From Cytophagales bacterium (GTDB lineage: Bacteria; Bacteroidota; Bacteroidia; Cytophagales; Cyclobacteriaceae), in assembly GCA_003541895.1 (NCBI GenBank), contig DPLR01000260.1, positions 273 to 13,411 on the forward strand: a stretch of 13,139 nucleotides of DNA, in the 5' to 3' direction. Below the pieces are notes generated by a model. The model ran no database searches. It was not told the origin of the DNA and saw only the letters and a program-made list of their open reading frames with translations. Position 1 is the first letter of the stretch. Every line of letters starts with the position of its first letter. Shown one piece after another: positions 18 to 13,139 of the stretch. Made by a program: the position numbers and the translations under genes.

Positions 18-1094
18 ATGCAATTCTCTGCAACACAAATAGCTTTAATGATCGGTGGCAAGGTAGAAGGCAATGCCGATGCCGCCGCAGGATCTTTTGG
101 AAAAATTGAAGAAGCGCAGACCGGACAACTGGCTTTTTTAGCTAATCCCAAATACGAACAATACATCTACACTACACAAGCCAGCGCAGTAATTGTTAAA
201 AAAGATTTTGACGCACGAAAAGAAATTAACGCTACGCTCATTTTGGTGGATGATCCCTACACCAGCTTTACATTGCTGCTCGAAGAATACCATCGCGCCA
301 TTAGTTTTCAAAAAACGGGCGTGGAAGAGCCTTGCTTCATCGGAAGTAATTCTGTGGTTGGAAAAAATATTTATCGCGGAGCGTTCTCGTACATTGGCAA
401 CAACGTAAAGATTGGCGACAACGTAAAAATTTATCCGCATGTGTATGTTGGTGATAACGTGACTATCGGCAACAACACGATCCTTCATGCCAACGTAAAA
501 CTCTATGCCGACACGAAGCTCGGCCATGATTGCGTGATTCATTCGGGTACGGTAATCGGCAGCGATGGATTTGGTTTTGCTCCGCAAGAAGATGGATCGT
601 ACAAAACCATTCCACAATTAGGTAACGTGATCATCGAAGACAATGTGTGCATCGGTGCCAACACCGTGATCGACTGTGCTACGTTGTTTGGCGACTCAAC
701 GATTATTAGAAAAGGAGTTAAGCTCGATAACCTAATTCAAGTGGCGCACAATGTGGAGATCGGAAAAAACACCGTGATCGCTGCACAAACTGGAATCTCA
801 GGTTCATCCAAAATTGGCGAAAGCAACATGATCGGTGGACAGGTTGGAATCGCAGGTCATTTAGTAATTGCCAACAACACAGGCATTGGCGCACAGGCAG
901 GCATTGGCAAATCCATTAAAGAAGAGGGGCAAAAAATAATTGGCTCACCTGCCTTTGATGTGAAAGAATATTTTAAATCATACGCAGTATTCAAACACCT
1001 ACCCGATTTGAACGACCGCCTTCGCGACCTCGAGAGGAAAGTTGCTCAGCTCAACAACATAGCAGAGCAACAGCAAGTTGAAGGCGATGAATAA
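18..1094 (+). CDS. lpxD: UDP-3-O-(3-hydroxyacyl)glucosamine N-acyltransferase LpxD
   Basis: LpxD catalyses the third step of lipid A synthesis: it transfers a 3-hydroxyacyl chain from acyl carrier protein to the 2-amino group of UDP-3-O-acyl-glucosamine, in the cytoplasm at the inner membrane. The 358-aa protein has the two expected parts. Residues 1 to about 100 form the LpxD-type uridine-binding domain, with the typical start MQFSATQIA. From about residue 105 to 325 runs a left-handed beta-helix of hexapeptide repeats (IGDNVKI, IGNNTIL, IGANTVI). The motif QVAHNVEIG places the catalytic base at His244 (His239 in E. coli), and SDGFGFAP is also characteristic. The C-terminal helix (about 320-358) ends in a short charged tail. 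Length is near the Bacteroidota norm of about 345-350. The frame stays open upstream to the window edge, but this start fits the family. In many Bacteroidota lpxC/fabZ follows; here a cupin gene does. Confidence 0.97.
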   Translation: MQFSATQIALMIGGKVEGNADAAAGSFGKIEEAQTGQLAFLANPKYEQYIYTTQASAVIVKKDFDARKEINATLILVDDPYTSFTLLLEEYHRAISFQKTGVEEPCFIGSNSVVGKNIYRGAFSYIGNNVKIGDNVKIYPHVYVGDNVTIGNNTILHANVKLYADTKLGHDCVIHSGTVIGSDGFGFAPQEDGSYKTIPQLGNVIIEDNVCIGANTVIDCATLFGDSTIIRKGVKLDNLIQVAHNVEIGKNTVIAAQTGISGSSKIGESNMIGGQVGIAGHLVIANNTGIGAQAGIGKSIKEEGQKIIGSPAFDVKEYFKSYAVFKHLPDLNDRLRDLERKVAQLNNIAEQQQVEGDE

Positions 1095-1108
1095 CTCGCC
1101 CTCAGTTT

Positions 1109-1471
1109 ATGTACACCATTCCCTTTCAAACTTTTGATTGGTCATCGATTAAAAAAGAAGAACATCCGGGCACTACGGGCACTTCGTTTTGGCAAATCTT
1201 TTTTGTGAATGGACTTCGCATCAGGCGTGTTGAGTATTCAAAAAATTATTTGGCTGATCATTGGTGCACCAAAGGTCACATCGTCTACTGCCTCGAAGGC
1301 GAATTTGTGAGTGAACTTGAAACGGGAGAAAAATTTATTTTGAAAAAAGGAATGAGCTATGTCGTTTCAGACGGACTAAGCTCACACCGCTCTTCAACCA
1401 ACGATGGTGCCACCCTCCTAATTATTGATGGTAATTTTTTGAAACCTGTTTTAGCTGATCAGCCCGCGTAG
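1109..1471 (+). CDS. Small cupin-fold protein with DHWC motif
   Basis: A 120-aa single-domain cupin of unknown function. The core is one conserved double-stranded beta-helix: the segment ADHWCTKGHIVYCLEGEF (Asp50, His51, Trp52, Cys53, His57) holds the usual first cupin metal-binding region, in which the GH and the following Glu-Gly are typical. The second cupin motif is around GMSYVVSDGLSSHRSS, with a His that would complete a metal site. I recall a database family of cupins named after an Asp-His-Cys/Trp motif, and this protein looks like it. No reaction is assigned to that family as far as I know. No signal peptide, so cytoplasmic. It starts 14 bases after lpxD and is probably co-transcribed with it. 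Its last 13 bases overlap the tail of the convergent dehydrogenase gene. No Shine-Dalgarno sequence is visible. Confidence 0.85.
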   Translation: MYTIPFQTFDWSSIKKEEHPGTTGTSFWQIFFVNGLRIRRVEYSKNYLADHWCTKGHIVYCLEGEFVSELETGEKFILKKGMSYVVSDGLSSHRSSTNDGATLLIIDGNFLKPVLADQPA

Positions 1472-2622
1472 GTGATTCGATAAATTACATTGGCCTGATC
1501 ATCGCTTACCAACATCGAACCATCGGGTAAAAGCAAAACATCAACGGGTCTTCCCCACGCCTTTTGGGCTGCTTCATCAAGCCAACCCGTAGCAAAGGGA
1601 GTGTAGCTGGTTGAATTTCCGCTTGCGTCAACTTTGACGAGACTCAATTTATATCCGCTTTTTCGCGTGCGATTCCATGAGCCGTGTTCCGCCACGATAA
1701 TATTATTTTGATATTCGGCCGGAAACATTTGGCCGGTATAAAACTTCAGACCAAGTGGTGCCACGTGTGCTCCTAAGTTTTGTGCAGGCTTAACAAAATC
1801 ACTGCACGGGCGTTTGTTTCCAAACTCTTCATCTTTAATAAATCCACCATGACAATACGGATAGCCAAAATGCAGTCCGGCTTTGGTAGCTTTGTTCAAT
1901 TCACAGGGAGGCATATCATCGCCCAGCATATCGCGGCCGTTATCGGTAAACCACATGTCTTTTGATTTCGGATGCCAAGTAAAACCAACCGAGTTACGAA
2001 TGCCATTGGCAAAAACTTCCATGCCTGTGCCGTCAGGGTTCATTCGGGTGATACTGGCATAGACTGGATTTTTTGATTCACAAATATTGCAAGGTGCACC
2101 CACCGGGACATATAATTTCCCGTCCGGCCCGAAGGCAATGTATTTCCATCCATGATGTGCATCGGTCGGATATTTGTCGTAGATAATTTCAGATTTGCCT
2201 GGATTGTCAAGCTTGCTTTCAATGTTTGAAAATTTATGAATGCGGCTGATCTCAGCTACATACAAATCGCCATTTCTGAAAGCAACTCCATTGGGCATGT
2301 TAAGTCCTTTTGCGATCACCCATTTTTTATCTGCCACGCCATCGCCATTGGTGTCTTTTATCGCATAGACTTTGTCTTCGTCTTTGTTGCCAACGAAAAT
2401 TGTTCCACTCGGACTTATCGCCAGCGAGCGCGCGTTGTCAACTTCTGCAAAAACTTTAATAGAGAATCCTTTCGGTAATTTTATTTTGTCGAGGGGCAAA
2501 CTTGCACTCGCTTCGGTGATTGCTGGTTCAGAATTGCCAGCAACAACAAATTCTTTCTTTATGGATTGTGTGCTAAGGAGTGCAACAAATACTAGCGACA
2601 AGATGTAAGCGGTTCTCTTCAT
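1459..2622 (-). CDS. Exported PQQ-type sugar (glucose/sorbosone) dehydrogenase-like beta-propeller protein
   Basis: A 387-aa secreted protein of the glucose/L-sorbosone dehydrogenase family, whose members use pyrroloquinoline quinone (PQQ) to oxidise sugars in the periplasm. Residues 1 to about 20 are a signal peptide (basic MKRT, then a hydrophobic core). The rest is a six-bladed propeller, from LPKGFSIKVFAEV through repeated strand motifs. Family hallmarks seen: DTNGDGVAD, a calcium-loop-like segment (90-98); AHHGWKYIAFGPDGKLYVPVG (His156/His157) leading to a Cys pair in PCNIC (178, 181); GIRNSVGFTWHP; and AEHGSWNRTRKSGYK. There is no C-terminal cytochrome c domain, which some relatives carry. 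The substrate cannot be read from sequence; many relatives are annotated only as sorbosone dehydrogenase without tests. It converges on the cupin gene with a 13-base overlap, and the next gene on its strand is 93 bases upstream. Confidence 0.9.
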   Translation of the reverse strand: MKRTAYILSLVFVALLSTQSIKKEFVVAGNSEPAITEASASLPLDKIKLPKGFSIKVFAEVDNARSLAISPSGTIFVGNKDEDKVYAIKDTNGDGVADKKWVIAKGLNMPNGVAFRNGDLYVAEISRIHKFSNIESKLDNPGKSEIIYDKYPTDAHHGWKYIAFGPDGKLYVPVGAPCNICESKNPVYASITRMNPDGTGMEVFANGIRNSVGFTWHPKSKDMWFTDNGRDMLGDDMPPCELNKATKAGLHFGYPYCHGGFIKDEEFGNKRPCSDFVKPAQNLGAHVAPLGLKFYTGQMFPAEYQNNIIVAEHGSWNRTRKSGYKLSLVKVDASGNSTSYTPFATGWLDEAAQKAWGRPVDVLLLPDGSMLVSDDQANVIYRITYAG

Positions 2623-2639
2623 TGTAAATTCTTTTTCTA

Positions 2640-2671
2640 TAAACCTACAACAAAAAAGAATCTATTGTCAA
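2640..2671 (-). promoter_or_regulatory. Candidate promoter of the sugar dehydrogenase-like gene
   Basis: Read on the minus strand, TTGACA (2671-2666) is followed after 18 bases by TAGGTTTA (2647-2640). This is one base off the Bacteroidota -7 element TAnnTTTG, with a -33 TTG at about the right spacing. The -7 box lies 17 bases before the ATG of the dehydrogenase gene, giving a short leader. The region between the two minus-strand genes is only 93 bases, and a separate promoter here would let the dehydrogenase be expressed apart from the gene upstream. The match is imperfect and the stretch is A/T rich, so chance is possible. Confidence 0.35.
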
Positions 2672-2715
2672 GTATTCAGGCAAAAACGAATTCAAAAAAG
2701 AGACAAGCGGTCAAT

Positions 2716-3255
2716 TTAAATTTCAACTTTCTCAATGGCCTTAACGGGAATATCAAAACCACCGCGCAGTTCAACAAACGAACCAGCCAGTTCAATAAAA
2801 TTAGAAATCACTTCAACTCTCCTGCCATTGGCCAGACGAACAATGATGGCAATGTCATCGTGATCTTGATACGTTTCGGTAGTTGCGGCTTTGAGGTCGT
2901 GCTCGCGGGCTATTCTTTCTTCTGGTTTTCTGAGCACATCTTCTACAGCAAAATGTTGCTTTGTCACCTCAGCCGGTGTCATCCGGATTAGTTTCTGAAA
3001 TTCACTCGACCATATTTTTAGTTGCTCGTTGAACCAACTCCAGGCCGCGTCAGTCCAGTGAAAGTTCTTGTGCAAGTAATCCACCGTTTCGCGTTCTGTT
3101 TCGGTGTACACATCTCCGTCAACCACCGCAGCCAAAATTTGTTCGGCATCGTTTTTTGAAATTCGGCCATCGCCCGATCCTTTCACCGCTTCCTCAGCCA
3201 ACTGAATCAGCTTCATATCCAGTTTTTTACCATCGATTTGCTTGTAGTAATCCAT
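2716..3255 (-). CDS. Hypothetical protein with degenerate EF-hand-like segment
   Basis: I do not recognise this 179-aa protein. It has no signal peptide or membrane segment and is acidic and probably cytoplasmic. The first part (about 10-70) is helical, with two similar acidic turns: GSGDGRISKNDAE and VDGDVYTETERE. The first resembles an EF-hand loop (D-G-x-I in the right places), but the first ligand position is Lys and the last is Asp, so calcium binding is doubtful. The helix-turn-helix rhythm also recalls TerB-like helical bundles. A middle amphipathic region (80-130, with conserved-looking Trp residues before it) leads to a C-terminal beta-rich part (about 134-179: IAIIVRLANGRRVEV, then GGFDIPVKAIEKVEI). 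Coding looks real: a long frame with a consistent composition, filling the space between its neighbours. It is transcribed away from the ABC-F gene, 129 bases separating the two starts. Confidence 0.75.
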   Translation of the reverse strand: MDYYKQIDGKKLDMKLIQLAEEAVKGSGDGRISKNDAEQILAAVVDGDVYTETERETVDYLHKNFHWTDAAWSWFNEQLKIWSSEFQKLIRMTPAEVTKQHFAVEDVLRKPEERIAREHDLKAATTETYQDHDDIAIIVRLANGRRVEVISNFIELAGSFVELRGGFDIPVKAIEKVEI

Positions 3256-3369
3256 AGTTCAGCGGAAAAAGAATCACCGCATACGCAACTTACTAAAATC
3301 GCTAAGTCAAAGTCAACGAAAACAACTGAAATGTATCAAGCAACGCAATGTCAAAAATCATTTAATCTT

Positions 3370-3377
3370 TACCTTTG
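3370..3377 (+). promoter_or_regulatory. Bacteroidota -7 promoter element before the ABC-F gene
   Basis: TACCTTTG is an exact match to TAnnTTTG, the -7 element used by the Bacteroidota primary sigma factor. It ends 7 bases before the ATG at 3385, so transcription would begin at or a base or two before the start codon, giving a leaderless or nearly leaderless mRNA. I could not find a clear TTG -33 element at the expected distance. The position decides the start of the ABC-F gene, since upstream ATGs would lie outside the transcript. Confidence 0.6.
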
Positions 3378-3384
3378 CGCGTTT

Positions 3385-5298
3385 ATGATTTCAATTTCCA
3401 ACATTTCGTACTTCATCGGTGGTCGTGCACTTTATGAAAATGCATCGATGTTCATCCGTCCAAATGATAAAATTGGCTTGATTGGCCTTAACGGACGTGG
3501 CAAATCTACCTTGCTGAAAATTATTGACGGTGAATTAACTGTTAACGCAGGCTCCATCAGCAAAGCCAAAGACTGCACAGTTGGGTTTTTGAATCAGGAC
3601 TTGCTCTCGTACCAAACCGATGATGCCATTTTAACCGTGGCGATGGAAGCCTTCAAAGAAGCGGTTGACACACAGCGGCAAATCGAAAAAATATTGCACA
3701 AACTGGAGACTGAATACAGCGATGATCTGGTCGACAAGCTTACGAAACTGCAAGAAAAATTTGAACACCTCGATGGTTACACCATGCAAGCCAAAGCCGA
3801 AGAAATTTTGGAAGGCATTGGTTTCTCTACGCAAGATTTACATCGGCCGTTGCGCGAATTTTCTGGCGGCTGGCGCATGCGCGTGATGCTTGCAAAATTG
3901 CTGCTCGAAAAACCATCGTGCTTAATGTTGGATGAACCCACCAACCACTTGGATCTTCCATCCATTGAGTGGGTTGAAAACTACCTGCGCAATTACGAAG
4001 GTGCCGTAATTATCGTTTCGCACGACCGCACCTTTCTGGATAATGTGATCAACAAAACAGTTGACGTTACCAATCAACAGCTGATCACCTACGAAGGAAA
4101 TTATTCGTTCTATATAGAAGAGAAGGCGATGCGCGAAGAAATTCAGCAAGGTGCCTATGAAAATCAACAGGCAAAAATCAGACAAGCAGAAAGATTTATC
4201 GAACGGTTTCGCGCCAAAGCTACAAAGTCGAGGCAAGTACAATCAAGGGTGAAAGCGTTGGATCGGATGGAAAAAATTGAAGAGGTAGTAAGTGATGTTG
4301 CCGAAATCAATTTCCGATTTACCTTCAAGCAACCATCCGGTAGGCATGTGGTAACCTTGAAGGACATTTCAAAATCGTATGGCTCGCTTGATATTTTGAA
4401 ACACACCAGCGCAACGATTGAACGCGGAGACAAAATTGCATTGATCGGTGCGAACGGAAAAGGAAAATCAACATTGCTGAGAATTCTCGCCAACACCGAG
4501 CCCGTGGAAGGCGAACGAACCATTGGCTACAATGTGATCTACGGATTTTATGCACAGCACCAACTCGAATCGCTTCATGTTGACAATGAAATTTTAGACG
4601 AGATGAAGCAAGCCGGCAGCGGTAAAACCGAACAGGAGCTGCGCAATGTGCTGGGCTGTTTTTTGTTTTCGGATGAAGATGTATTTAAAAAAATAGAAGT
4701 GCTTTCAGGAGGAGAGAAATCGCGCGTGGCTTTGGCGAAGACATTAATCTCTGAAGCCAATTTTTTGTTGCTGGATGAACCCACGAACCACTTGGATTTT
4801 ATTTCGGAAAATATTCTGATCCAAGCGCTGCAGCAATATCAAGGGAGTTTTATAACCGTGAGCCACAACCGACATTTTGTAAGTCAGGTGGCGAATAAAA
4901 TCTGGTATATCGAAAATCATCAGATCAAAGAATATCCGGGAACCTACGAAGAGTACGAATATTGGCATAAGAAGAACATGGCCAATCAAACAGCCGAAGT
5001 ACCCGCAGCAAAAAAAGAAACGCCAAAGAAAGAAACTAAAAAAACTTCGGCTCCCTCTGATCAAAACAAACTCAACGCACTTTATAAAGATTTGAAGCAA
5101 GTTGAAACTGCCATTCAAAAATTAGTGGAAGAAAAAGAACAAATTGAAAATGAACTTGCCAAACCTGAAGTCTACAGCAATCTTGAAAAATTAAATGAGC
5201 AACAGCAAAAATTTGAAAAGGTAGATTCGCAATTGGAAGAAGAAAATAAAAAATGGGAATCCATCGCGTTAGAAATTGAAGAGGTGGAAGGAAAATAA
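3385..5298 (+). CDS. ABC-F family ATPase, YheS/Uup-like
   Basis: A soluble ABC-F protein (637 aa from this start), with two ATPase domains and no membrane part. ABC-F proteins bind near the ribosomal E site and help translation or ribosome rescue. Domain 1 has Walker A GLNGRGKS (34-41), signature SGGWRMR (160) and Walker B LMLDEPTNHLD (Asp183). The linker (about 230-310) carries ERFRAKATKSRQVQSR, near-identical to the segment in E. coli YheS. Domain 2 has GANGKGKS (355-362), signature SGGEKSR (441) and Walker B LLLDEPTNHLD (Asp464). After about residue 530 comes a Lys/Pro/Ala-rich tether and a C-terminal coiled coil (about 560-637). The longest frame begins at 3238, but that would add 49 non-conserved residues and overlap the divergent gene. 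ATG 3385 gives the standard family start MISISNISYFIGG and sits just after a -7 element. The closest E. coli type is YheS rather than EttA. Resistance function is not indicated. Confidence 0.95.
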   Translation: MISISNISYFIGGRALYENASMFIRPNDKIGLIGLNGRGKSTLLKIIDGELTVNAGSISKAKDCTVGFLNQDLLSYQTDDAILTVAMEAFKEAVDTQRQIEKILHKLETEYSDDLVDKLTKLQEKFEHLDGYTMQAKAEEILEGIGFSTQDLHRPLREFSGGWRMRVMLAKLLLEKPSCLMLDEPTNHLDLPSIEWVENYLRNYEGAVIIVSHDRTFLDNVINKTVDVTNQQLITYEGNYSFYIEEKAMREEIQQGAYENQQAKIRQAERFIERFRAKATKSRQVQSRVKALDRMEKIEEVVSDVAEINFRFTFKQPSGRHVVTLKDISKSYGSLDILKHTSATIERGDKIALIGANGKGKSTLLRILANTEPVEGERTIGYNVIYGFYAQHQLESLHVDNEILDEMKQAGSGKTEQELRNVLGCFLFSDEDVFKKIEVLSGGEKSRVALAKTLISEANFLLLDEPTNHLDFISENILIQALQQYQGSFITVSHNRHFVSQVANKIWYIENHQIKEYPGTYEEYEYWHKKNMANQTAEVPAAKKETPKKETKKTSAPSDQNKLNALYKDLKQVETAIQKLVEEKEQIENELAKPEVYSNLEKLNEQQQKFEKVDSQLEEENKKWESIALEIEEVEGK

Positions 5299-5322
5299 AA
5301 TCGGTTTTAAGTCAACGCACTC

Positions 5323-5670
5323 ATGAAAAAAGGAATTGGATTTTTGTTGGTCATCATTGTCGCAGCGTGTAGCAATAACAATACTCCGTTCGAAAAAAAA
5401 GGGTGGCTAGAGAAAAAGAATTTCTTGTACACCAAGCGCGAATTTATGGTGAGCGATCTGATGGTGAACTATAAATTCAAAGGCATGAAAACCAAACAGC
5501 TTTTCGAAATGCTTGGCAAACCTGATAGTGGTGACCCGAATAAATTTTATTATACCATTACTGAAACACTAGAACAAAATATTGACCCGGTTTATATTAA
5601 AAGTCTAGTTTTTATCGTGAATGTCGATTCGGTAATAACGGATTACAAGGTAGAGGAATTCAAAAAGTAA
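5323..5670 (+). CDS. Small lipoprotein, BamE/SmpA-like fold suspected
   Basis: A 115-aa exported lipoprotein. The N-terminus is a lipoprotein signal: MKKG, a hydrophobic stretch, then lipobox VAAC with lipidated Cys16. The residues after it (SNNN) are not acidic, so there is no sign of the acidic surface-export signal known in some Bacteroidota, and a periplasm-facing location is the simpler guess. The mature part has the rhythm of the BamE/SmpA family: Arg-x-x-Met-x-x-Asp-Leu, then FKGMKTKQLFEMLGKPDSG, then paired strands (KFYYTI; SLVFIVNVDSVITDYKV). BamE itself stabilises the BAM outer-membrane assembly complex, but many small proteins share this fold and the similarity here is by eye only. 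It begins 24 bases after the ABC-F gene and ends 39 bases before nhaA, so it may belong to a transcript with either. Confidence 0.75.
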   Translation: MKKGIGFLLVIIVAACSNNNTPFEKKGWLEKKNFLYTKREFMVSDLMVNYKFKGMKTKQLFEMLGKPDSGDPNKFYYTITETLEQNIDPVYIKSLVFIVNVDSVITDYKVEEFKK

Positions 5671-5709
5671 TTCTGATTTTGATTCACCCGCTATGCTCGA
5701 CATTGCCCT

Positions 5710-6843
5710 ATGAAATTAACCAAACTCTTTACCGAATTCTTCGACAGCGAAAAAACGAGTGGCGTTATCCTTATCGCTTGTACTTTATTTTCTCTGATCA
5801 TTTCTAATTCAACTTTTGCCCATGCCTATCAAGGATTCTTTCACGTGGTTGTTTTTTCAAAACCAATCGAATTTTGGATTAACGATGGATTGATGACCAT
5901 ATTCTTTTTACTCGTTGGTTTAGAGATAGAAAGAGAAATATACATCGGAGAACTGGCCGACATCAAAAAATCGATGATGCCAGCGGTGTGCGCTATTGGC
6001 GGAATGCTCGTGCCTGCTTTGATTTATTTTAGTTTCAATAAAAATGGATTTTCACAAAATGGTTTTGGCATACCCATGGCCACCGATATTGCTTTCTCAC
6101 TAGCGGTTCTATCATTGTTGGGAAATCGCGTACCAGTTTCACTTAAAATATTTCTTACTGCGCTCGCAATCATCGATGATTTGGGTGCCATTGTTGTCAT
6201 TGCACTTTTCTACTCAAAAAACTTCCATTGGATTTATTTAGTATTGGCTGCTTCTGTATTTGGCCTGATGCTGCTACTTAATCGAATGAAGGTTTACATA
6301 ACCTGGGTTTATCTAACGCTCGGCTGTGTCATGTGGATTTTGATGTATCGATCAGGAATACATCCAACCATCACTGGAGTGCTTTTAGCTTTTGCTATTC
6401 CATTTGGCAACGGAGAAAAAAATTCATTGTCGTATGTTTTGCAACACCGGTTACACCGACCCGTGGCATTCATCGTTCTGCCGTTATTCGCATTGGCAAA
6501 TACAGCCATTACGTTTCCAACTTCGTTTGCAAACCAGTTGTTTCAAACCACTAGCCTGGGAATAATTTTTGGGTTAGTACTTGGCAAACCATTAGGGATT
6601 TTTTCGTTTGCCCTCATCGGAAAAGCGCTCCGGTTAAGTAGCATTCCAGCCGATGTCAAACTAAAACAATTATTCTTTACGGGATTACTTGCTGGCATCG
6701 GATTTACGATGTCAATCTTCATCACCCTCTTGGCGTTTACAGACGCAACCATGATCGACCATTCAAAAATCGCCATCATGATGGCTTCCGTTTTAGCGGG
6801 ATCAGCCGGATACTTAGGGCTTCGACTCACGAGCAACTACTGA
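5710..6843 (+). CDS. nhaA: Na+/H+ antiporter NhaA
   Basis: NhaA is an inner-membrane antiporter that expels one Na+ (or Li+) in exchange for two H+, for pH and salt homeostasis. The 377-aa protein is close to E. coli NhaA (388 aa) and is made of about 12 hydrophobic helices. Signature pieces: FFLLVGLEIEREIYIGEL after the second helix; MATDIAFSLAVL with the Asp in the discontinuous helix (Asp126, matching E. coli Asp133); AIIDDLGAIVVIALFYS with the paired ion-binding aspartates Asp156/Asp157 (E. coli 163/164); and LGKPLGI with Lys293 (E. coli Lys300). All the key residues are present, so the protein should be functional. The C-terminus (FTMSIFITLLAF, then SVLAGSAGYLGLRL) is also typical. No recognisable NhaR-type regulator is adjacent. 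The gene ends just before a palindromic stretch that may stop transcription. Confidence 0.97.
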   Translation: MKLTKLFTEFFDSEKTSGVILIACTLFSLIISNSTFAHAYQGFFHVVVFSKPIEFWINDGLMTIFFLLVGLEIEREIYIGELADIKKSMMPAVCAIGGMLVPALIYFSFNKNGFSQNGFGIPMATDIAFSLAVLSLLGNRVPVSLKIFLTALAIIDDLGAIVVIALFYSKNFHWIYLVLAASVFGLMLLLNRMKVYITWVYLTLGCVMWILMYRSGIHPTITGVLLAFAIPFGNGEKNSLSYVLQHRLHRPVAFIVLPLFALANTAITFPTSFANQLFQTTSLGIIFGLVLGKPLGIFSFALIGKALRLSSIPADVKLKQLFFTGLLAGIGFTMSIFITLLAFTDATMIDHSKIAIMMASVLAGSAGYLGLRLTSNY

Positions 6844-7016: not shown

Positions 7017-7024
7017 TACTTTTG
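7017..7024 (+). promoter_or_regulatory. Bacteroidota -7 promoter element of the glycan operon
   Basis: TACTTTTG is an exact TAnnTTTG match ending 24 bases before the ATG at 7049. Transcription would start at about 7030, leaving a leader of about 20 bases. No convincing TTG -33 element is seen 17-23 bases upstream. As the following genes overlap or nearly touch, this is the likely promoter for the whole run from the response regulator to the YaiO protein. It also rules out a TTG start at 7022, which lies inside the element. Confidence 0.55.
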
Positions 7025-7048
7025 AGCCAACAAAAAACAAACCAAGCG

Positions 7049-7423
7049 ATGAAAATACTAGCCTGTGACGATAACGCCTTTTTAACAAAAATTATTCAGT
7101 TAAAAGTTGCCAACGAAAACTTGGGCACTGTGGATGTAGCTGCTAATGGAAAGGAATGTATACGGATGATGGACAAGGAGAAGTTCGACCTTTTGCTTTT
7201 AGACATTCACATGCCGTTCAATAGTGGTTTTGAACTTCTTACCTACGTTCGGAACCAACTGAAATTAGCGACTCCCATCATTGTTTTGTCGTCAGAAAGT
7301 TTAAGTACCACTGTAAGAAAAGCAAGGGAGTTAGGCGCCAATGATTTCATGGCCAAGCCTTTCAATCCCGCTGAGTTAATTCTACGCATCAAACAATTAA
7401 TGAAAAAATATGAATACGCTTGA
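7049..7423 (+). CDS. Receiver-only response regulator
   Basis: A CheY-like single-domain response regulator of 124 aa, with no DNA-binding or enzymatic output domain. The start is ATG 7049 (MKILACDDNAF); the TTG 27 bases upstream sits in the promoter element. All receiver residues are present: acidic pair Asp7/Asp8, phospho-acceptor Asp52 in LLLLDIHMP, the Ser81 switch in IIVLSS, and Lys103 in MAKPF. It should therefore be phosphorylated by a histidine kinase encoded elsewhere and act by binding a partner protein. Being the first gene of an operon with a HEAT-like membrane protein and a glycosyltransferase, the likely targets are those proteins; this is inference. Its last 14 bases overlap the next gene if that gene starts at its first ATG, which indicates coupled translation. 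Confidence 0.93.
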   Translation: MKILACDDNAFLTKIIQLKVANENLGTVDVAANGKECIRMMDKEKFDLLLLDIHMPFNSGFELLTYVRNQLKLATPIIVLSSESLSTTVRKARELGANDFMAKPFNPAELILRIKQLMKKYEYA

Positions 7424-8489
7424 GATAAATCCAATGGAAGCCGAGCAATTGTTTTTATTCAAACTCTCGTTGGGCTTTGTCGCTATTGCAGTGTTTTTTG
7501 TTGTGCTCGTTTTCACAAAACGATTTATAAAGATTTGGCGCGACCAAGAAAAAGAATGGTTCTTAAAAAAAATAGTACCACTCATTGGCTCGATGGTTAT
7601 TGTGAAACGAAATCGGTTGGAATGGCGAAGAGACATCAAACTATTGGTGAGCCTGATAGGGCGAAACCACGCCAAACAACAAATCGCTATCGATCACTTA
7701 ATGCATTTGAAAAGTAATCTTGAAGGCGAAAGCGCAGGTTTGATTTTTCAACTTTACCGCGACCTTAATCTGGTAGAATTCTCGCGCAACAAATTGCGGC
7801 AAACAAACTGGACTAAACAGACCGAAGGAGTGCGAGAGCTCGCATCCATGAACTGCTACTTTGTAAACGTGTTTAGTTCATTGCTTCAAAAAACCAAACA
7901 GGTAACACTGCGCAATGAGCTCATCGTTGCAATGACTTGGTTGGATAAAAAAGAACCTTTCAGAAGTTTTAGACTGATCAATTTTGAATTGACTGATTGG
8001 TTGAAACTCAACATTTACGATCAATTAAAAAAATATAATCGGGTAGATTTGCCAGATTTCAGTCCATGGATTTGTCATGAGCGACAAGAAGTAGCAACCT
8101 TCTTTATTTGGTTAGCCAAGACATTTAACCAAACATCTTCATCCAATGCAATTGCTCATGCGCTGAGTGGCGCAAAAACGGTTGCCAATGCAGCCCTTGA
8201 TTCGCTTATCGAGATGAGAAATTTTAGCTACACTCAAAAAGTGGAAGCCATGATATCAAACCATTGGATTTGCCCAGACACTAGCCTGTTGATTTTGTGT
8301 TACCTTGAGGGGACTGACAAAAATAATTTTGTTCAAATTCTGATTGACCGATTCCGGTTTCATCCTTACGAATCCGTGATGCAAAAGGCTGATAGATTGA
8401 GGTCTACTTACTTCGAAAAAGAGAACACGAATCAAATCCTAGCAACTTCTACCTACACAAACGCTTTGCACTATGGAAACGCACGTTGA
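7410..8489 (+). CDS. Membrane-anchored helical-repeat (HEAT-like) protein of glycan operon
   Basis: A 359-aa protein I recognise only as a type: one N-terminal membrane helix (about 14-35, LFLFKLSLGFVAIAVFFVVLVF) followed by a basic stretch KRFIKIWR, which predicts that the long remainder is in the cytoplasm. That remainder is almost all alpha-helical, with helix pairs separated by short turns (for example TEGVRELASMNCYF; LRNELIVAMTWLDKKEPF; AALDSLIEMRNFS), as expected for degenerate HEAT-like repeats, which bind proteins. No enzymatic motif is seen. Start choice: ATG 7410 overlaps the regulator gene by 14 bases; ATG 7434 (MEAEQLFLF) would leave a 10-base gap and is almost equally good. Its 3' end overlaps the glycosyltransferase gene by 17 bases. 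Likely role: scaffold or adaptor between the phosphorylated receiver protein and the synthase, by position only. Confidence 0.8.
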   Translation: MNTLEINPMEAEQLFLFKLSLGFVAIAVFFVVLVFTKRFIKIWRDQEKEWFLKKIVPLIGSMVIVKRNRLEWRRDIKLLVSLIGRNHAKQQIAIDHLMHLKSNLEGESAGLIFQLYRDLNLVEFSRNKLRQTNWTKQTEGVRELASMNCYFVNVFSSLLQKTKQVTLRNELIVAMTWLDKKEPFRSFRLINFELTDWLKLNIYDQLKKYNRVDLPDFSPWICHERQEVATFFIWLAKTFNQTSSSNAIAHALSGAKTVANAALDSLIEMRNFSYTQKVEAMISNHWICPDTSLLILCYLEGTDKNNFVQILIDRFRFHPYESVMQKADRLRSTYFEKENTNQILATSTYTNALHYGNAR

Positions 8490-9909
8490 TTATTTCATTC
8501 ATTTGATTATTGCCATTTATGGAGGCTCACTGGCAGCGTGGTATTTAGTGCTGGCCATTATTTCGCTGATCGAAATGCGCGAATACCTGAAAAAGAATTC
8601 GTTGGTAGATTACAACACTATACTTTCATCTCCTTCGGCACCAGGTATTTCGCTCGTAGCACCTGCCTACAACGAATCAAGAACAATCATTGATAATGTG
8701 AAGTCATTGCTTTCTATCACTTACAATAATTTTGAAGTCATTGTAGTGAACGATGGATCAACCGATGATTCAATTGCACAACTTCAAAAAATATTTGACC
8801 TAGAAAAAGTAAACGAAATTCATCAACAGCCTTTAGCAACACAAAAAGTAAAAGCGATCTATCGCTCGCGCAACAAGGCCTTTGAAAGACTCTTAATCAT
8901 TGACAAACAAAACGGTGGTAAGGCTGACGCGCTAAACGTGGGGCTAAATTTTGCAAGCAATGAATTGGTAGCGTGCATCGATGTGGATTGTATTATTGAA
9001 CCTGATGCTTTATTGAGAATGGTGAAACCATTTTTAGAAGACAACCTAGTGATTGCCTCAGGTGGAGTTGTACGCATTGCAAATTCGTGTGTAGTAGAAG
9101 ATGGCCGCTTGGTAAAAGTGAAGTTGCCATCGCAGCTTTTACCCCGTTTTCAAGTGCTTGAATATTTGCGAGCTTTCCTTCTCGGCCGAATGGCTTGGAG
9201 TAAACTCAATGGCTTACTCTTGATTTCAGGAGCCTTCGGTTTATTCAAACGCAATGTTGCTGTTCAATGTGGAGGTTACAACGCAAACACAGTTGGCGAA
9301 GACATGGAGTTTGTGGTGCGCATGCGCAAGTACATGCATGAACAAGGCCATCCTTACCGTGTGGCATACATCCCCGATCCGCTCTGCTGGACGGAGGTTC
9401 CAAAAAATAATGCACAGTTTGGTCGTCAGCGCAATCGTTGGGCACGCGGCACTTTTGAAACGTTGTGGCTCAACCGAAAATTATTTTTCAATAAGCGTTA
9501 TGGGCTCATGGGTTTGGTTAGCTATCCGTTTTGGTTTTTCTACGAGTGGCTTTCTCCCTTTATCGAAACCGGAGGGCTCATCTACTTTGGCGCAATGCTC
9601 GCCTTAGGCAAATTCAATTGGACTTATTTCCTATTTCTCTTCATCACCATTCACGCATTTGTATTCTTAATCTCAGCGCTGGCCATCTTTGCAGAAGAAA
9701 GCACGTATCATAAATACACGTTGCGGAGAGAAGTTTTAAAATTAATTGGCATCGCCCTACTCGAGCCGCTGGTACTTCATCCGCGTGTAATCTATTGGTC
9801 AATCCGGGGTAACATTGATTTTTGGCGAGGTAAAAAAAGTTGGGGCGAAATGAAACGCGAGGGATTTGCAACTACTGAAACAGTACAAGCTAAACTAAGT
9901 CTTTCATGA
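8473..9909 (+). CDS. Processive family 2 glycosyltransferase (membrane polysaccharide synthase)
   Basis: A 478-aa inner-membrane glycosyltransferase with GT-A fold, of the same broad group as PgaC, cellulose and hyaluronan synthases. Order: one N-terminal membrane helix (about 8-33); cytoplasmic catalytic domain (about 57-335); three or four C-terminal hydrophobic segments (about 343-445). Catalytic motifs are complete: VVNDGSTDD with Asp94; CIDVDC with the metal-binding DxD Asp170/Asp172; VGED with the base Asp277; and QRNRW (Gln319-Trp323), the QxxRW motif of processive enzymes. Between the first Asp motif and NGGKADALN there is a charged insertion (about 105-145) longer than in PgaC. No PilZ or other c-di-GMP-binding domain is attached. 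The sugar donor cannot be read from the sequence. It overlaps the genes on both sides (17 and 4 bases), showing tight translational coupling. Confidence 0.94.
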   Translation: METHVDYFIHLIIAIYGGSLAAWYLVLAIISLIEMREYLKKNSLVDYNTILSSPSAPGISLVAPAYNESRTIIDNVKSLLSITYNNFEVIVVNDGSTDDSIAQLQKIFDLEKVNEIHQQPLATQKVKAIYRSRNKAFERLLIIDKQNGGKADALNVGLNFASNELVACIDVDCIIEPDALLRMVKPFLEDNLVIASGGVVRIANSCVVEDGRLVKVKLPSQLLPRFQVLEYLRAFLLGRMAWSKLNGLLLISGAFGLFKRNVAVQCGGYNANTVGEDMEFVVRMRKYMHEQGHPYRVAYIPDPLCWTEVPKNNAQFGRQRNRWARGTFETLWLNRKLFFNKRYGLMGLVSYPFWFFYEWLSPFIETGGLIYFGAMLALGKFNWTYFLFLFITIHAFVFLISALAIFAEESTYHKYTLRREVLKLIGIALLEPLVLHPRVIYWSIRGNIDFWRGKKSWGEMKREGFATTETVQAKLSLS

Positions 9910-12191
9910 AAACCAATAACAAATTTGGAATAACCTCGGTTAGCTTATTCTTTTTGATAGCATGGATGTGCCTGCCGCTGTACCGACATTTAAGTTCAAG
10001 TCATGGCATTCAATCGAATGAGGAACTACCCTACAATTTAATTACAGCGTTGAGTTTCATATTTGTTATTTCAACTATCTCTTTCTTCTTCAATTTAATT
10101 GGGTCAAAAGCAACGAAAATTATTGCGATTGTTCTTTACAGTGTTGCCTTGTTGAGTTATGCCCTAACAGAAAGCTATTCTATTATTACCCAACAAAATT
10201 TGGGGGCTGATCTCTTTGGTTACTCTATAAAAGACATTCTACTCACGGCTAGCTCTTCCGTATCGCTCAAAATAGACATGATCGCTTTTTTTACACTCGT
10301 GCTAATTTTTTTTGTAAGCACATCGGTATTCATTAAAGCGAAAGATTCCATTCTCAGATTGACTATTACCATGACGTTGAGCTTGATAGGGTTCATCATC
10401 ACTTTCATTCATGTTCAGAGAGCAACAGATCTACAGAATGAAAACAAATTGCTCTCCTTATTAAGTGACATCAAAAGAGTAAAAAATAATTATACAGAAC
10501 CTCTAAACGTTAAAGGATTTCCCTTTTTGAATGAATTTGATTTTAGCAATCCGTGGAAAGAATACATCGAACAAACGGACACACCACCCAATTTTGTCTT
10601 TGTAATTGTTGAAGGTTTAGGCGGTGATTTTGTGAGTAACGGAAAATATGCTGGATTCACACCCTTCCTTGATTCGCTCATTCAGCAAAGTCTGTACTGG
10701 AAAAACGGACTTAGTAATGCAGGCCGAACATTCGGTGCTATGCCCAGTATCTTTGGTTCACTTCCGTATGGCGAAAGTGGTTTTATGAATCTTGGGCAAC
10801 AGATGCCACAGCATCAAACATTATTCACGCTATTAAAATCTTCAGGTTATCAAACCAATTTTTTTTATGGTGGCAATCCCAATTTTGACAACTTAGATTT
10901 ATTTCTTGAGCGACAAACCCTGGATCAATTTATCAACTCATCCAACTTTCCGAACTCAATAAAACAATCAGAGTCAAACAAACATTGGGGTTATGCAGAC
11001 GAGCAGTTGTTTCTGGTGGGCACCGAGTCGATTAAGAATAAGACAGGTCCGCGCATGGATTGTTATTTAACCTTATCAACCCATGAACCATTTGAATGCC
11101 CTGACCTTAAAATAAAAAAATTGGCTGATGCACTGATCGAAAAAAAGCAGGGAGATTTCAGCGCCAACAAAAATATATTCGAATGCTTGTACTACACTGA
11201 CAATGCCTTGCGCAAAATGTTTGCGTGGTATAACAAGCGAACCGATTTCAAGAACACAATATTTATCATCACAGGCGACCACCGTTTGATTCCGATGGAT
11301 AATGGCAATCGGCTGTCGCGCCATCATGTGCCTATTTTGGTATACTCGAAATTGATCAAGCAACCGAAAACATTTTCATCGCTCGCCATTCATTCTTCGA
11401 TAACACCTTCTGTCGTTGGCTATCTAGCTAGTGAATTTCATTTACGTTTTCCGGCTCAACTTCCATTCATTTCTAAACCTTTAAGCACAGACACATTTTT
11501 CACTAGCAATCTAGATTTACCCTTGATCAGAGTAAAGAATTCGGTAGCGGATTACATCAGCGGCAAGGATTTTTTATCCGAGGGTGAGCTGTACGAAATC
11601 TCAGACATCCTCGAATTGAAAAGAGCAAAGAATGAAACTCTAAAAAAGAAATTAGTTCGTAAACTCAACGACTTTCAAAGTAAAAGCGAATATGTTCTGA
11701 AAAACAATAAACTTGATTCAACTAGTCGTGCATTTACAACTGAGTTTCTTTTAACCGAATACCAAAAATCAATCGAGCAAAAAGAAAATTTGGTAGGGAT
11801 GAGTCCGGATCAAATGTTGTCCAAAGCAAGAGGGCTTGCCTACGCAAAGCAATACACTGAAGCTGGAGTTATTCTGAAAGTGTTATTGAATCAAAGTCCC
11901 AACTATCATGATACACGCTTGTTGTTAGCCAGAACTTACGCGTGGCAAAATAAATACGACAGCGCTATGCACTTGGTAAATCAAACACTAAAAAAGTCAC
12001 CTCAATATGCGGATGCTTATGTGCTGTGGAGTGACATCGAATATTGGCAAGGAAACTCAAAAGCATCACTAAAAATCAGTGAGGACGGTTTACAGTGGAA
12101 TGCCACCGACAGCGAATTAAAACAGAGGCGAGCACGAGCACTCCATTCCCTCTTAGAAGCTAAAGCAAGTCAAAACAACTTAATCCATTAG
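9906..12191 (+). CDS. LtaS-type membrane phosphotransferase (sulfatase fold) with C-terminal TPR domain
   Basis: A 761-aa inner-membrane enzyme of the lipoteichoic-acid-synthase/phosphoethanolamine-transferase superfamily, which moves phospho-head groups from lipids onto glycans outside the membrane. Five membrane helices (about 9-28, 43-66, 72-92, 122-143, 155-175) precede a periplasmic alkaline-phosphatase-like domain (about 228-530). Residues match the S. aureus LtaS site: metal ligand Glu236 (VIVEGLG), nucleophile Thr275 (AGRTFGAMPS), His393 (STHEPF), and Asp458-His459 (TGDHR). SLPYGESG also fits. After a charged helical linker (about 560-635) come about three TPRs (637-745), unusual for this family and paralogous to the TPRs of the next protein. 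The start overlaps the glycosyltransferase stop by 4 bases (ATGA). In a bacterium with lipid A and no teichoic acid, the likely substrate is the glycan made by the neighbouring synthase; the transferred group (phosphoglycerol or phosphoethanolamine) is unknown. Confidence 0.9.
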   Translation: MKTNNKFGITSVSLFFLIAWMCLPLYRHLSSSHGIQSNEELPYNLITALSFIFVISTISFFFNLIGSKATKIIAIVLYSVALLSYALTESYSIITQQNLGADLFGYSIKDILLTASSSVSLKIDMIAFFTLVLIFFVSTSVFIKAKDSILRLTITMTLSLIGFIITFIHVQRATDLQNENKLLSLLSDIKRVKNNYTEPLNVKGFPFLNEFDFSNPWKEYIEQTDTPPNFVFVIVEGLGGDFVSNGKYAGFTPFLDSLIQQSLYWKNGLSNAGRTFGAMPSIFGSLPYGESGFMNLGQQMPQHQTLFTLLKSSGYQTNFFYGGNPNFDNLDLFLERQTLDQFINSSNFPNSIKQSESNKHWGYADEQLFLVGTESIKNKTGPRMDCYLTLSTHEPFECPDLKIKKLADALIEKKQGDFSANKNIFECLYYTDNALRKMFAWYNKRTDFKNTIFIITGDHRLIPMDNGNRLSRHHVPILVYSKLIKQPKTFSSLAIHSSITPSVVGYLASEFHLRFPAQLPFISKPLSTDTFFTSNLDLPLIRVKNSVADYISGKDFLSEGELYEISDILELKRAKNETLKKKLVRKLNDFQSKSEYVLKNNKLDSTSRAFTTEFLLTEYQKSIEQKENLVGMSPDQMLSKARGLAYAKQYTEAGVILKVLLNQSPNYHDTRLLLARTYAWQNKYDSAMHLVNQTLKKSPQYADAYVLWSDIEYWQGNSKASLKISEDGLQWNATDSELKQRRARALHSLLEAKASQNNLIH

Positions 12192-12214
12192 AAATACAAA
12201 AAAAATCAATAGCG

Positions 12215-13139
12215 ATGAAATTATTAATGCTAGGTGCGGCCATTCTATGTTTTTCTTTTTCTGTAAGAGGACAAGAATGGAAATCACTTTCGGTAGATGA
12301 GCTTTTCAAAACTGCGAGACAAAATGCATTCGATGGCGATCGGTTGCAAGCACGGATGAAGCTTCATGAAATTTTAAATCGCACCCCAGCGTATGATGAA
12401 GTTGCTGTGTTTTTGGCGCGCACTTTTATCTGGGACGGAGAATATGATTCTGCCCGTTTAATTCTCCAAAATCTTTTGAGTAAAAATCCACACAACAGGG
12501 AAGCCATGCTTGTTCTCTCAGACGCTTTCGGCTGGAGCGGAAATTACTCAGATGCATTAGCTACCGTAAATGTTTGGCTCACTTCAAACCCAAATGATGA
12601 AGACTTCCTTTATAAGAAGGGAAGTTACTTGAAAGAACTTGGCAAAAATGCAGAGTCGGCAGCAGTGCTTCAAACGCTGCTATCCATTCAGCCCTCGCAC
12701 AAAAAAGCATCTGAGCTTTTGCAAGAGTTCAAGCGACAAAACCAGCGAAATGCAGTTACCGGATCTTATAGTGCAGACATTTTCAATCGTACATTTTCGC
12801 CTGCGCAATTTGCTTACATGCAGATAGCTCGGAGCTACCGTTGGGGAACCGGAATGGCAAGAGTAAATTTTGCTAACCGTTTTACTCAAAGTGGAACGCA
12901 AGCAGAATTTGATATTTATCCTCGCTTGCTAAAAGGAACGTACGGCTATTTTAATTATGGTTACTCGTCATCAGCGCTGTCTCCGGTACACAGGATAGGA
13001 GCAGAATTTTATTCAAAGTTGCCCAAGTCGCTAGAAATTTCTGCAGGAGCTCGTTATCTGAATTATGGAAGCAGCACACCTGTAATTATCTACACAGGAT
13101 CGCTCGGCTGGCATTTCAAAAACAAGTGGGTTTCGGTGA
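12215..13139 (+). CDS. YaiO-family outer-membrane protein with N-terminal TPRs (partial, cut by window end)
   Basis: The frame is open from ATG 12215 to the window end (308 residues seen, no stop), so the 3' end is missing. Residues 1-19 are a signal peptide (MKLLMLGAAILCFSFSVRG, cleavage before Gln20). Residues about 28-175 are TPRs: FLARTFIWDGEYDSA, then VLSDAFGWSGNYSDAL, then KKGSYLKELGKNAES. From about 182 (AVTGSYSADIF) the protein turns into alternating beta strands rich in Tyr, Phe and Gly, such as YGYFNYGYSSSALSP and SAGARYLNYG, as in the YaiO outer-membrane barrel domain. About 100-130 more residues are expected downstream. YaiO proteins sit in the outer membrane, and TPR-plus-barrel proteins such as PgaA and BcsC export polysaccharides; a similar export or anchoring role is inferred. 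It begins 24 bases after the previous stop codon, in the same operon. Confidence 0.88.
   Translation, partial: MKLLMLGAAILCFSFSVRGQEWKSLSVDELFKTARQNAFDGDRLQARMKLHEILNRTPAYDEVAVFLARTFIWDGEYDSARLILQNLLSKNPHNREAMLVLSDAFGWSGNYSDALATVNVWLTSNPNDEDFLYKKGSYLKELGKNAESAAVLQTLLSIQPSHKKASELLQEFKRQNQRNAVTGSYSADIFNRTFSPAQFAYMQIARSYRWGTGMARVNFANRFTQSGTQAEFDIYPRLLKGTYGYFNYGYSSSALSPVHRIGAEFYSKLPKSLEISAGARYLNYGSSTPVIIYTGSLGWHFKNKWVSV

Follow-up and report, generated by a model that had tools for sequence, protein, structure and literature searches.

A conserved five-gene unit of Bacteroidota with the parts of a synthase-dependent exopolysaccharide system and a lone receiver

Introduction

What might five tightly packed genes at the end of a Cytophagales contig build together, and what would switch it on? 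The window, a 13,139-nucleotide stretch of a Cytophagales bacterium (assembly GCA_003541895.1, contig DPLR01000260.1), ends with genes for a lone receiver, a HEAT-like protein, a family 2 glycosyltransferase (GT2), an LtaS/OpgB-type phosphotransferase and a YaiO protein, the last two with tetratricopeptide repeats (TPRs). A first-pass annotation of this DNA proposed that the five form an undescribed surface-glycan export machine. We find that the five families are one conserved unit, and we consider it reasonably probable that the unit is a synthase-dependent exopolysaccharide machine under phosphorelay control. The genes, all on the plus strand, are as follows.

7049..7423, +, receiver (PF00072), 124 residues; codon of the acceptor Asp52 at 7202-7204
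7410..8489, +, membrane-anchored protein, predicted HEAT/ARM-type alpha-solenoid, 359 residues; hydrophobic stretch at residues 16-34
8473..9909, +, GT2 synthase (PF00535/PF13641), 478 residues; QRNRW codons at 9427-9441
9906..12191, +, LtaS/OpgB-type membrane phosphotransferase with C-terminal TPR (PF00884, TPR_19), 761 residues; domain at ~10587-11423, codon of the Thr275 nucleophile at 10728-10730, TPR at ~11826-12155
12215..13138, +, TPR and YaiO beta-barrel protein with a signal-peptide-like N-terminus; barrel from ~12749, incomplete at the window end

The five families occur as one unit

We searched 392 Bacteroidota genomes from 178 genera, the window's own genome included, for the GT2 subfamily (profile A2, E<=1e-80), YaiO (PF19413, E<=1e-8) and the LtaS subfamily (profile A5, E<=1e-70). 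At most four GT2 and two LtaS candidates were scored per genome, and further copies may be missed. The GT2 subfamily is present in 99 genomes and 54 genera, and YaiO in 96 genomes. Both occur in 95, leaving four genomes with GT2 alone and one with YaiO alone. The LtaS subfamily is found in 40 genomes, all of which also carry GT2 and YaiO. The genes are close together as well: a core GT2 is found no more than 6 kb from 89 of the 101 YaiO matches and from 38 of the 42 LtaS copies, and 89 of the 110 GT2 copies have a YaiO within the same distance. By our estimate, chance would place one gene this near another in ~0.3% of cases if the genome is ~4 Mb long. Nominal Fisher P values, which ignore relatedness, are 4e-85 for YaiO and 1e-27 for LtaS. 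Co-occurrence together with adjacency rules out chance clustering.

The layout was followed in 122 loci annotated with locally built profiles, comprising 16 of 17 from a scan of named genomes and 106 of 108 fetched loci. The set leaves aside the window itself and three loci that lack a GT2 open reading frame (ORF) of at least 250 bits (L021, L149 and L159), counts one locus with two GT2 copies (L066) once, and counts the near relatives L005/L006 and L007/L016 in full. YaiO is present in 93 of these loci and LtaS in 43, and 37 hold all five families within 7 kb. The exact order and strand of the window recur in 13, including loci of Ohtaekwangia koreensis (L016) and Chryseolinea (L008). The HEAT gene shares the strand of GT2 in 116 loci and directly precedes it within 150 bp in 115, with a median gap of -4. 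In 13 of the 122, GT2 and LtaS are fused in one frame of 1134-1270 residues; Pfam confirms both domains in the two fusions scanned (L073 and L084). No other single observation ties the synthase to the transferase as strongly. On co-occurrence, adjacency and fusion the five families are one conserved unit, as the first-pass annotation supposed; the contrary pattern that it named, genes rarely found together, was not seen in the sampled Bacteroidota.

Families of the five proteins

Pfam places four of the five proteins above its cut-offs in the families first assigned to them, and the HEAT assignment follows from relatives, a family profile and a structural model. The GT2 scores 87 bits against PF00535 (cut-off 23.3). 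The synthase QxxRW motif reported earlier is indeed present as QRNRW at residues 319-323, and QRxRW is invariant in 12 of 12 aligned GT2s, as befits an inner-membrane GT2 synthase with the Q(Q/R)xRW signature. Its best NCBIfam model is PgaC/IcaA (TIGR03937, 141 bits, below the cut-off of 422), and the CelA/BcsA model TIGR03030 gives 45 bits against a cut-off of 699. Pfam finds no PilZ domain in the protein, and its NCBIfam match list holds no synthase of osmoregulated periplasmic glucans (OPGs).

The transferase scores 108 bits against PF00884 (cut-off 25) and 43 bits against TPR_19 (cut-off 25). Glu236, Asp458 and His459 are kept in all 16 aligned transferases, and residue 275 is Thr in 14 and Ser in two. 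By comparison with LtaS, we take these four alignment positions to be catalytic. BcsG and LtaS both belong to the alkaline-phosphatase superfamily. The nearest solved structure by both sequence and fold is 3lxq (VP1736), followed by LtaS proteins, whose fold matches include glycerol-phosphate complexes. The LtaS equivalog NF053595 gives 50.7 bits (cut-off 970) and the OpgB equivalog, phosphoglycerol transferase I, 37.6 bits (cut-off 572). The catalytic Glu, Thr and Asp-His and the fold thus mark a broadly LtaS/OpgB-type enzyme. The earlier label, LtaS-like, fits the fold, and OpgB/LtaS-type is the better name given that 3lxq is nearest. A sulfatase reading of PF00884 is disfavoured by the Thr/Ser nucleophile and by the fold ranking, in which sulfatases appear from rank 18. 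An EptA/MCR-type transferase is a weaker match, at 18.6 bits versus 50.7 for LtaS and with MCR-1 at rank 17.

The YaiO protein scores 129 bits against PF19413 (cut-off 23.9) and 85 bits against TIGR04390 (cut-off 32). It combines TPR with an outer-membrane beta-barrel and is a putative transporter. Its TPR is homologous to that of the transferase (30% identity over 118 residues, E 6e-17), which suggests a shared ligand. This ligand is plausibly the glycan, since BcsC, according to PMC11379886, uses its TPRs to bind what is putatively a cello-oligosaccharide.

Pfam gives no match for the HEAT-like protein of the window, even when E values up to 1 are admitted. Its relatives match HEAT_2 above cut-off in five of five and two of two cases in two scans. 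A 16-member family profile matches artificial HEAT-type (alphaRep) structures at 5e-28, and its top match is the synthetic fusion 9sah at 2.1e-45. The predicted structure (pLDDT 93.7) has a long N-terminal helix with a transmembrane stretch, followed by an alpha-solenoid. Family profile, relatives and model agree on a predicted HEAT/ARM solenoid. The family alignment comprises 62 of 80 dereplicated sequences, the window protein and three database proteins.

The receiver and its possible partners

The receiver scores 86 bits against PF00072 (cut-off 30.2) and has all of the phospho-site residues D7, D8, D52, S81 and K103. In an alignment of 71 of 78 dereplicated receivers plus that of the window, the acceptor Asp is kept in 64 of 72, the window included. 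A lone receiver lies nearby in 91 of the 122 loci. Its gene is immediately upstream of the HEAT gene in many loci, frequently with an overlap, and is the last of the operon in some.

Candidate phosphate donors are present at several loci. A hybrid-kinase gene stands divergently beside the operon in L005, L006, L007 and L016, with PilJ, PAS, HisKA, HATPase and receiver domains in L005. A histidine phosphotransfer (Hpt) gene precedes the receiver in L009, and Hpt genes lie near GT2 in 21 of 122 loci, as detected by a profile built from two sequences. ORFs of at least 400 residues that match the kinase profile occur in 50 of 122 loci; some are not kinases, since the profile matches receivers too and the 50 include, for example, a GGDEF-receiver protein of L019.

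The Bcs cellulose system uses cyclic diguanylate (c-di-GMP) for control. Among 14 near-complete carrier genomes, hand-picked from the 99, PilZ is found in none and GGDEF in one, and c-di-GMP control is disfavoured by these counts.

A proposed mechanism

In the reading that we prefer, a histidine kinase/Hpt relay would set the phosphorylation of the lone receiver. The receiver in turn would dock on the HEAT protein, which is anchored in the membrane and would offer its cytoplasmic solenoid as the docking surface. The HEAT protein would hold and gate the GT2 synthase, and the synthase would make and extrude a glycan. The LtaS/OpgB-type enzyme beside it would decorate the emerging chain with the head group of a phospholipid, either phosphoglycerol or phosphoethanolamine (pEtN). 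The related TPR arms of the transferase and the YaiO protein would then lead the chain to the YaiO barrel, by which it would be exported. We propose this chain because of the conserved unit, the catalytic residues, the TPR homology and the receiver phospho-site, which are direct observations, as are the families and the GT2-LtaS fusions, and because PilZ and GGDEF are scarce. The physical complex, the contact and gating between receiver and HEAT protein, the donor, the polymer and its export through the barrel are what we infer from them. Of the single export machine that the first-pass annotation described, the conserved five-family unit therefore stands as observed, and the surface-glycan product as inference.

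A sharper form of this proposal is possible but tentative. Here the phosphorylated lone receiver would bind the membrane HEAT solenoid, which would directly gate GT2 in place of c-di-GMP, in hosts mostly without PilZ; this would be a new class of control over polysaccharide synthases. The core would carry exchangeable periplasmic modules, namely the LtaS/OpgB-type decorator, a DUF4838/GH20b-like enzyme or an unnamed 'DKT' family, and would make surface glycans that are decorated with phosphodiesters or otherwise processed.

Several observations weigh against the exopolysaccharide reading or parts of it. LtaS lies within 6 kb of just 39 of the 110 GT2 copies, so decoration would be optional. 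GT2 and YaiO are absent from the only genome of the same genus in the sample and from three of seven others of the same family, and the system is therefore patchy. The YaiO barrel domain is short, at ~235 residues, and passage of a polymer through it is putative. The window holds no kinase gene. The window's own assembly (73.9% complete, the 15th searched) gives three GGDEF matches and one PilZ match. These matches are on contigs C354, C704 and C19 and are either real or from contaminating small contigs.

The remaining counter-evidence concerns the receiver: no nearby lone receiver was found in 31 of the 122 loci, and eight of the 72 aligned receivers lack the acceptor Asp. Along with the operons in which the receiver gene comes last, these counts favour a variant in which the same exopolysaccharide machine operates while the receiver is a phosphate sink or acts elsewhere, the HEAT protein alone serving as a structural co-polymerase. 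The receiver has no output domain, however, and its gene often directly precedes and overlaps the HEAT gene, and we regard this variant as unlikely. In the eight divergent receivers (L012, L017, L018, L056, L061, L079, L141 and L147), Glu, Thr or Asn takes the place of the acceptor Asp, and the switch may therefore have become independent of phosphate there.

An OPG-like system, with GT2 as OpgH, the LtaS-type enzyme as OpgB, a decorated oligosaccharide that stays mainly periplasmic and YaiO as an accessory, is quite unlikely. The transferase is OpgB/LtaS-like, with 3lxq first by sequence and fold, and OPGs carry phosphoglycerol and pEtN from phospholipids according to the accessible text of PMC3818809. 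YaiO and GT2 are nearly inseparable, however (95 shared genomes of 99 and 96), which suggests export. The OpgB score is far under its cut-off, and PgaC/IcaA, rather than any OPG synthase, is the best model for the GT2.

Least probable is a teichoic-acid-like pathway, in which GT2 primes a glycolipid and the LtaS-type enzyme extends it with a chain resembling poly(glycerol phosphate): the glycerol-phosphate complexes among the fold matches would suit it and the fusions would couple priming with polymerisation, but the GT2 retains the synthase signature QRxRW, 79 of 122 loci have GT2 without LtaS, and the positions of the LtaS head-group contacts are not conserved in the alignment.

Comparison with known systems

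The closest parallel to the proposed exopolysaccharide machine is the Bcs system of Escherichia coli, which makes pEtN-cellulose. As described in the accessible text of PMC11379886, it has a GT2 synthase, an adjacent membrane-anchored periplasmic head-group transferase, BcsG, and a TPR plus barrel protein. The first-pass annotation had contrasted the locus with Bcs on the grounds that known systems have no such transferase. That contrast fails: BcsG is comparable (PMC11379886 and PMC11470070, accessible text), and so, for periplasmic glucans, are OpgB and OpgE, which add phosphoglycerol or pEtN from phospholipids (PMC3818809, accessible text). Like Bcs, the five-gene system has a head-group transferase beside its GT2 synthase and a TPR plus outer-membrane barrel. 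Unlike Bcs, its five proteins show no PilZ domain or BcsB, a receiver and HEAT protein stand in place of c-di-GMP control, the barrel is of the YaiO type, the transferase has its own TPR, and synthase and transferase are sometimes one protein. Judged from the sequences, the system appears to work like BcsA-BcsG-BcsC. It is not a member of the Bcs family, because the GT2 lacks PilZ and reaches only 45 of 699 bits with the CelA model.

OpgH/OpgB/OpgE resembles it in the OpgB-like enzyme and in a glucan that carries phosphoglycerol or pEtN, but here a TPR/barrel exporter, a receiver and a HEAT partner are conserved with the synthase. With PgaABCD/IcaA it shares the best GT2 model and the TPR plus barrel plan, although at 141 versus 422 bits and with no deacetylase among the five genes it does not belong to PgaABCD. 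The E. coli cluster yaiS-yaiP-yaiX-yaiO also has a GT2 near a YaiO barrel gene, and YaiP is 23% identical to the window's GT2 over 369 columns; the two systems have nothing beyond this pairing in common. That cluster is annotated with a deacetylase and a broken acyltransferase, and receiver, HEAT and LtaS are not listed in it. E. coli YaiO and that of the window are related through the PF19413 profile only (BLASTP E 0.77, not alignable).

In line with its earlier description as undescribed, no account of the system was found in open-licence literature, covered by titles and the starts of abstracts, with subscription papers mostly outside that coverage. The accessible text of PMC9601211 holds no description of it, and that of PMC12419801 is unrelated.

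Accessory families and a distant relative

Of the 122 loci, 15 have a member of the membrane-anchored 'DKT' family (~390 residues), named for a motif conserved at its N-terminus, close to the core GT2, and 12 of these 15 have LtaS too. A member is at 10982-12148 of L013, and others are in L052, L053, L057, L079, L093, L094, L101, L104, L105, L136, L145 and L146 and in the large proteins of L019/L020. The members scanned have no match in Pfam (L013, L019, L093) or NCBIfam (L013, L019). The family was not found in the window's own genome, an empty result of little weight. A DUF4838 protein of ~735 residues, probably a glycan-processing enzyme, follows YaiO in 13 of 122 loci, and the copy at 11716-13929 of L061 adds a GH20-type domain.

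Outside Bacteroidota, two assemblies of Fictibacillus phosphorivorans (Bacillota; L019/L020) encode a HEAT-like protein and a GT2 with 39% identity, together with a receiver, a hybrid-kinase-like protein and a protein whose N-terminal region is of the DKT type. When the models are built without the Fictibacillus sequence, GT2 still matches strongly (528 bits) and HEAT weakly (E 2.3e-5, 20 bits). The LtaS and YaiO profiles have no match in these two loci, as expected since there is no outer membrane. The product of the gene before the HEAT-like gene (7304-8908 of L019) joins a receiver domain to a GGDEF domain and carries the motif GGEEF, and c-di-GMP may therefore enter through this protein in Fictibacillus.

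Operon boundaries and neighbouring genes

The spacing of the five same-strand genes is exactly as first reported: neighbours overlap by 14, 17 and 4 bases, and the last two genes are 23 bases apart. For the receiver, ATG 7049 is a likelier start than the listed TTG 7022 because its product, MKILACDDN, begins like those of relatives. One further feature had been proposed upstream.

7017..7024, +, proposed -7 element TACTTTTG, unproven and not above chance

The five genes had been described as lying behind this single element. The window contains 11 copies of the motif TAnnTTTG, fewer than the 14.1 expected in shuffled sequence, and the motif thus gives no evidence for one promoter.

The window ends at the contig end, where the YaiO gene runs off. 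Contig C70 of the same assembly shares the final 38 bases of the window apart from two mismatches. On a relative's YaiO protein, C70 aligns with residues 302-423 and the window with 21-313. The missing part is very probably the start of C70 (2-367 of L003). The first-pass annotation proposed to look beyond 13139 for further glycan genes; what follows is very probably the rest of the barrel and then, at 734-2353 of C70, a real-looking ORF on the opposite strand, so that the operon probably ends with YaiO.

Upstream, the window encodes LpxD (18-1094), a cupin with a DHCW motif (1109-1471), a beta-propeller protein of PVC-type/heme-binding-like character (1459-2622, minus strand), an ABC-F-type ATPase (~3382-5298) and an NhaA-type antiporter (5710-6843). 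Nothing connects these genes (18-6843) with the five-gene system.

Significance

About one in four of the sampled Bacteroidota genomes (99/392) carries the core, yet we found no description of it in the open-licence literature. The GT2-LtaS fusion offers an easy way to test, in a single protein, how glycan synthesis is paired with head-group transfer. If the proposal is true, the system would be a surface-coat or biofilm synthase for bacteria that mostly lack the parts of c-di-GMP signalling, and would offer a testable model of how two-component phosphorylation switches a polysaccharide synthase at the protein level.

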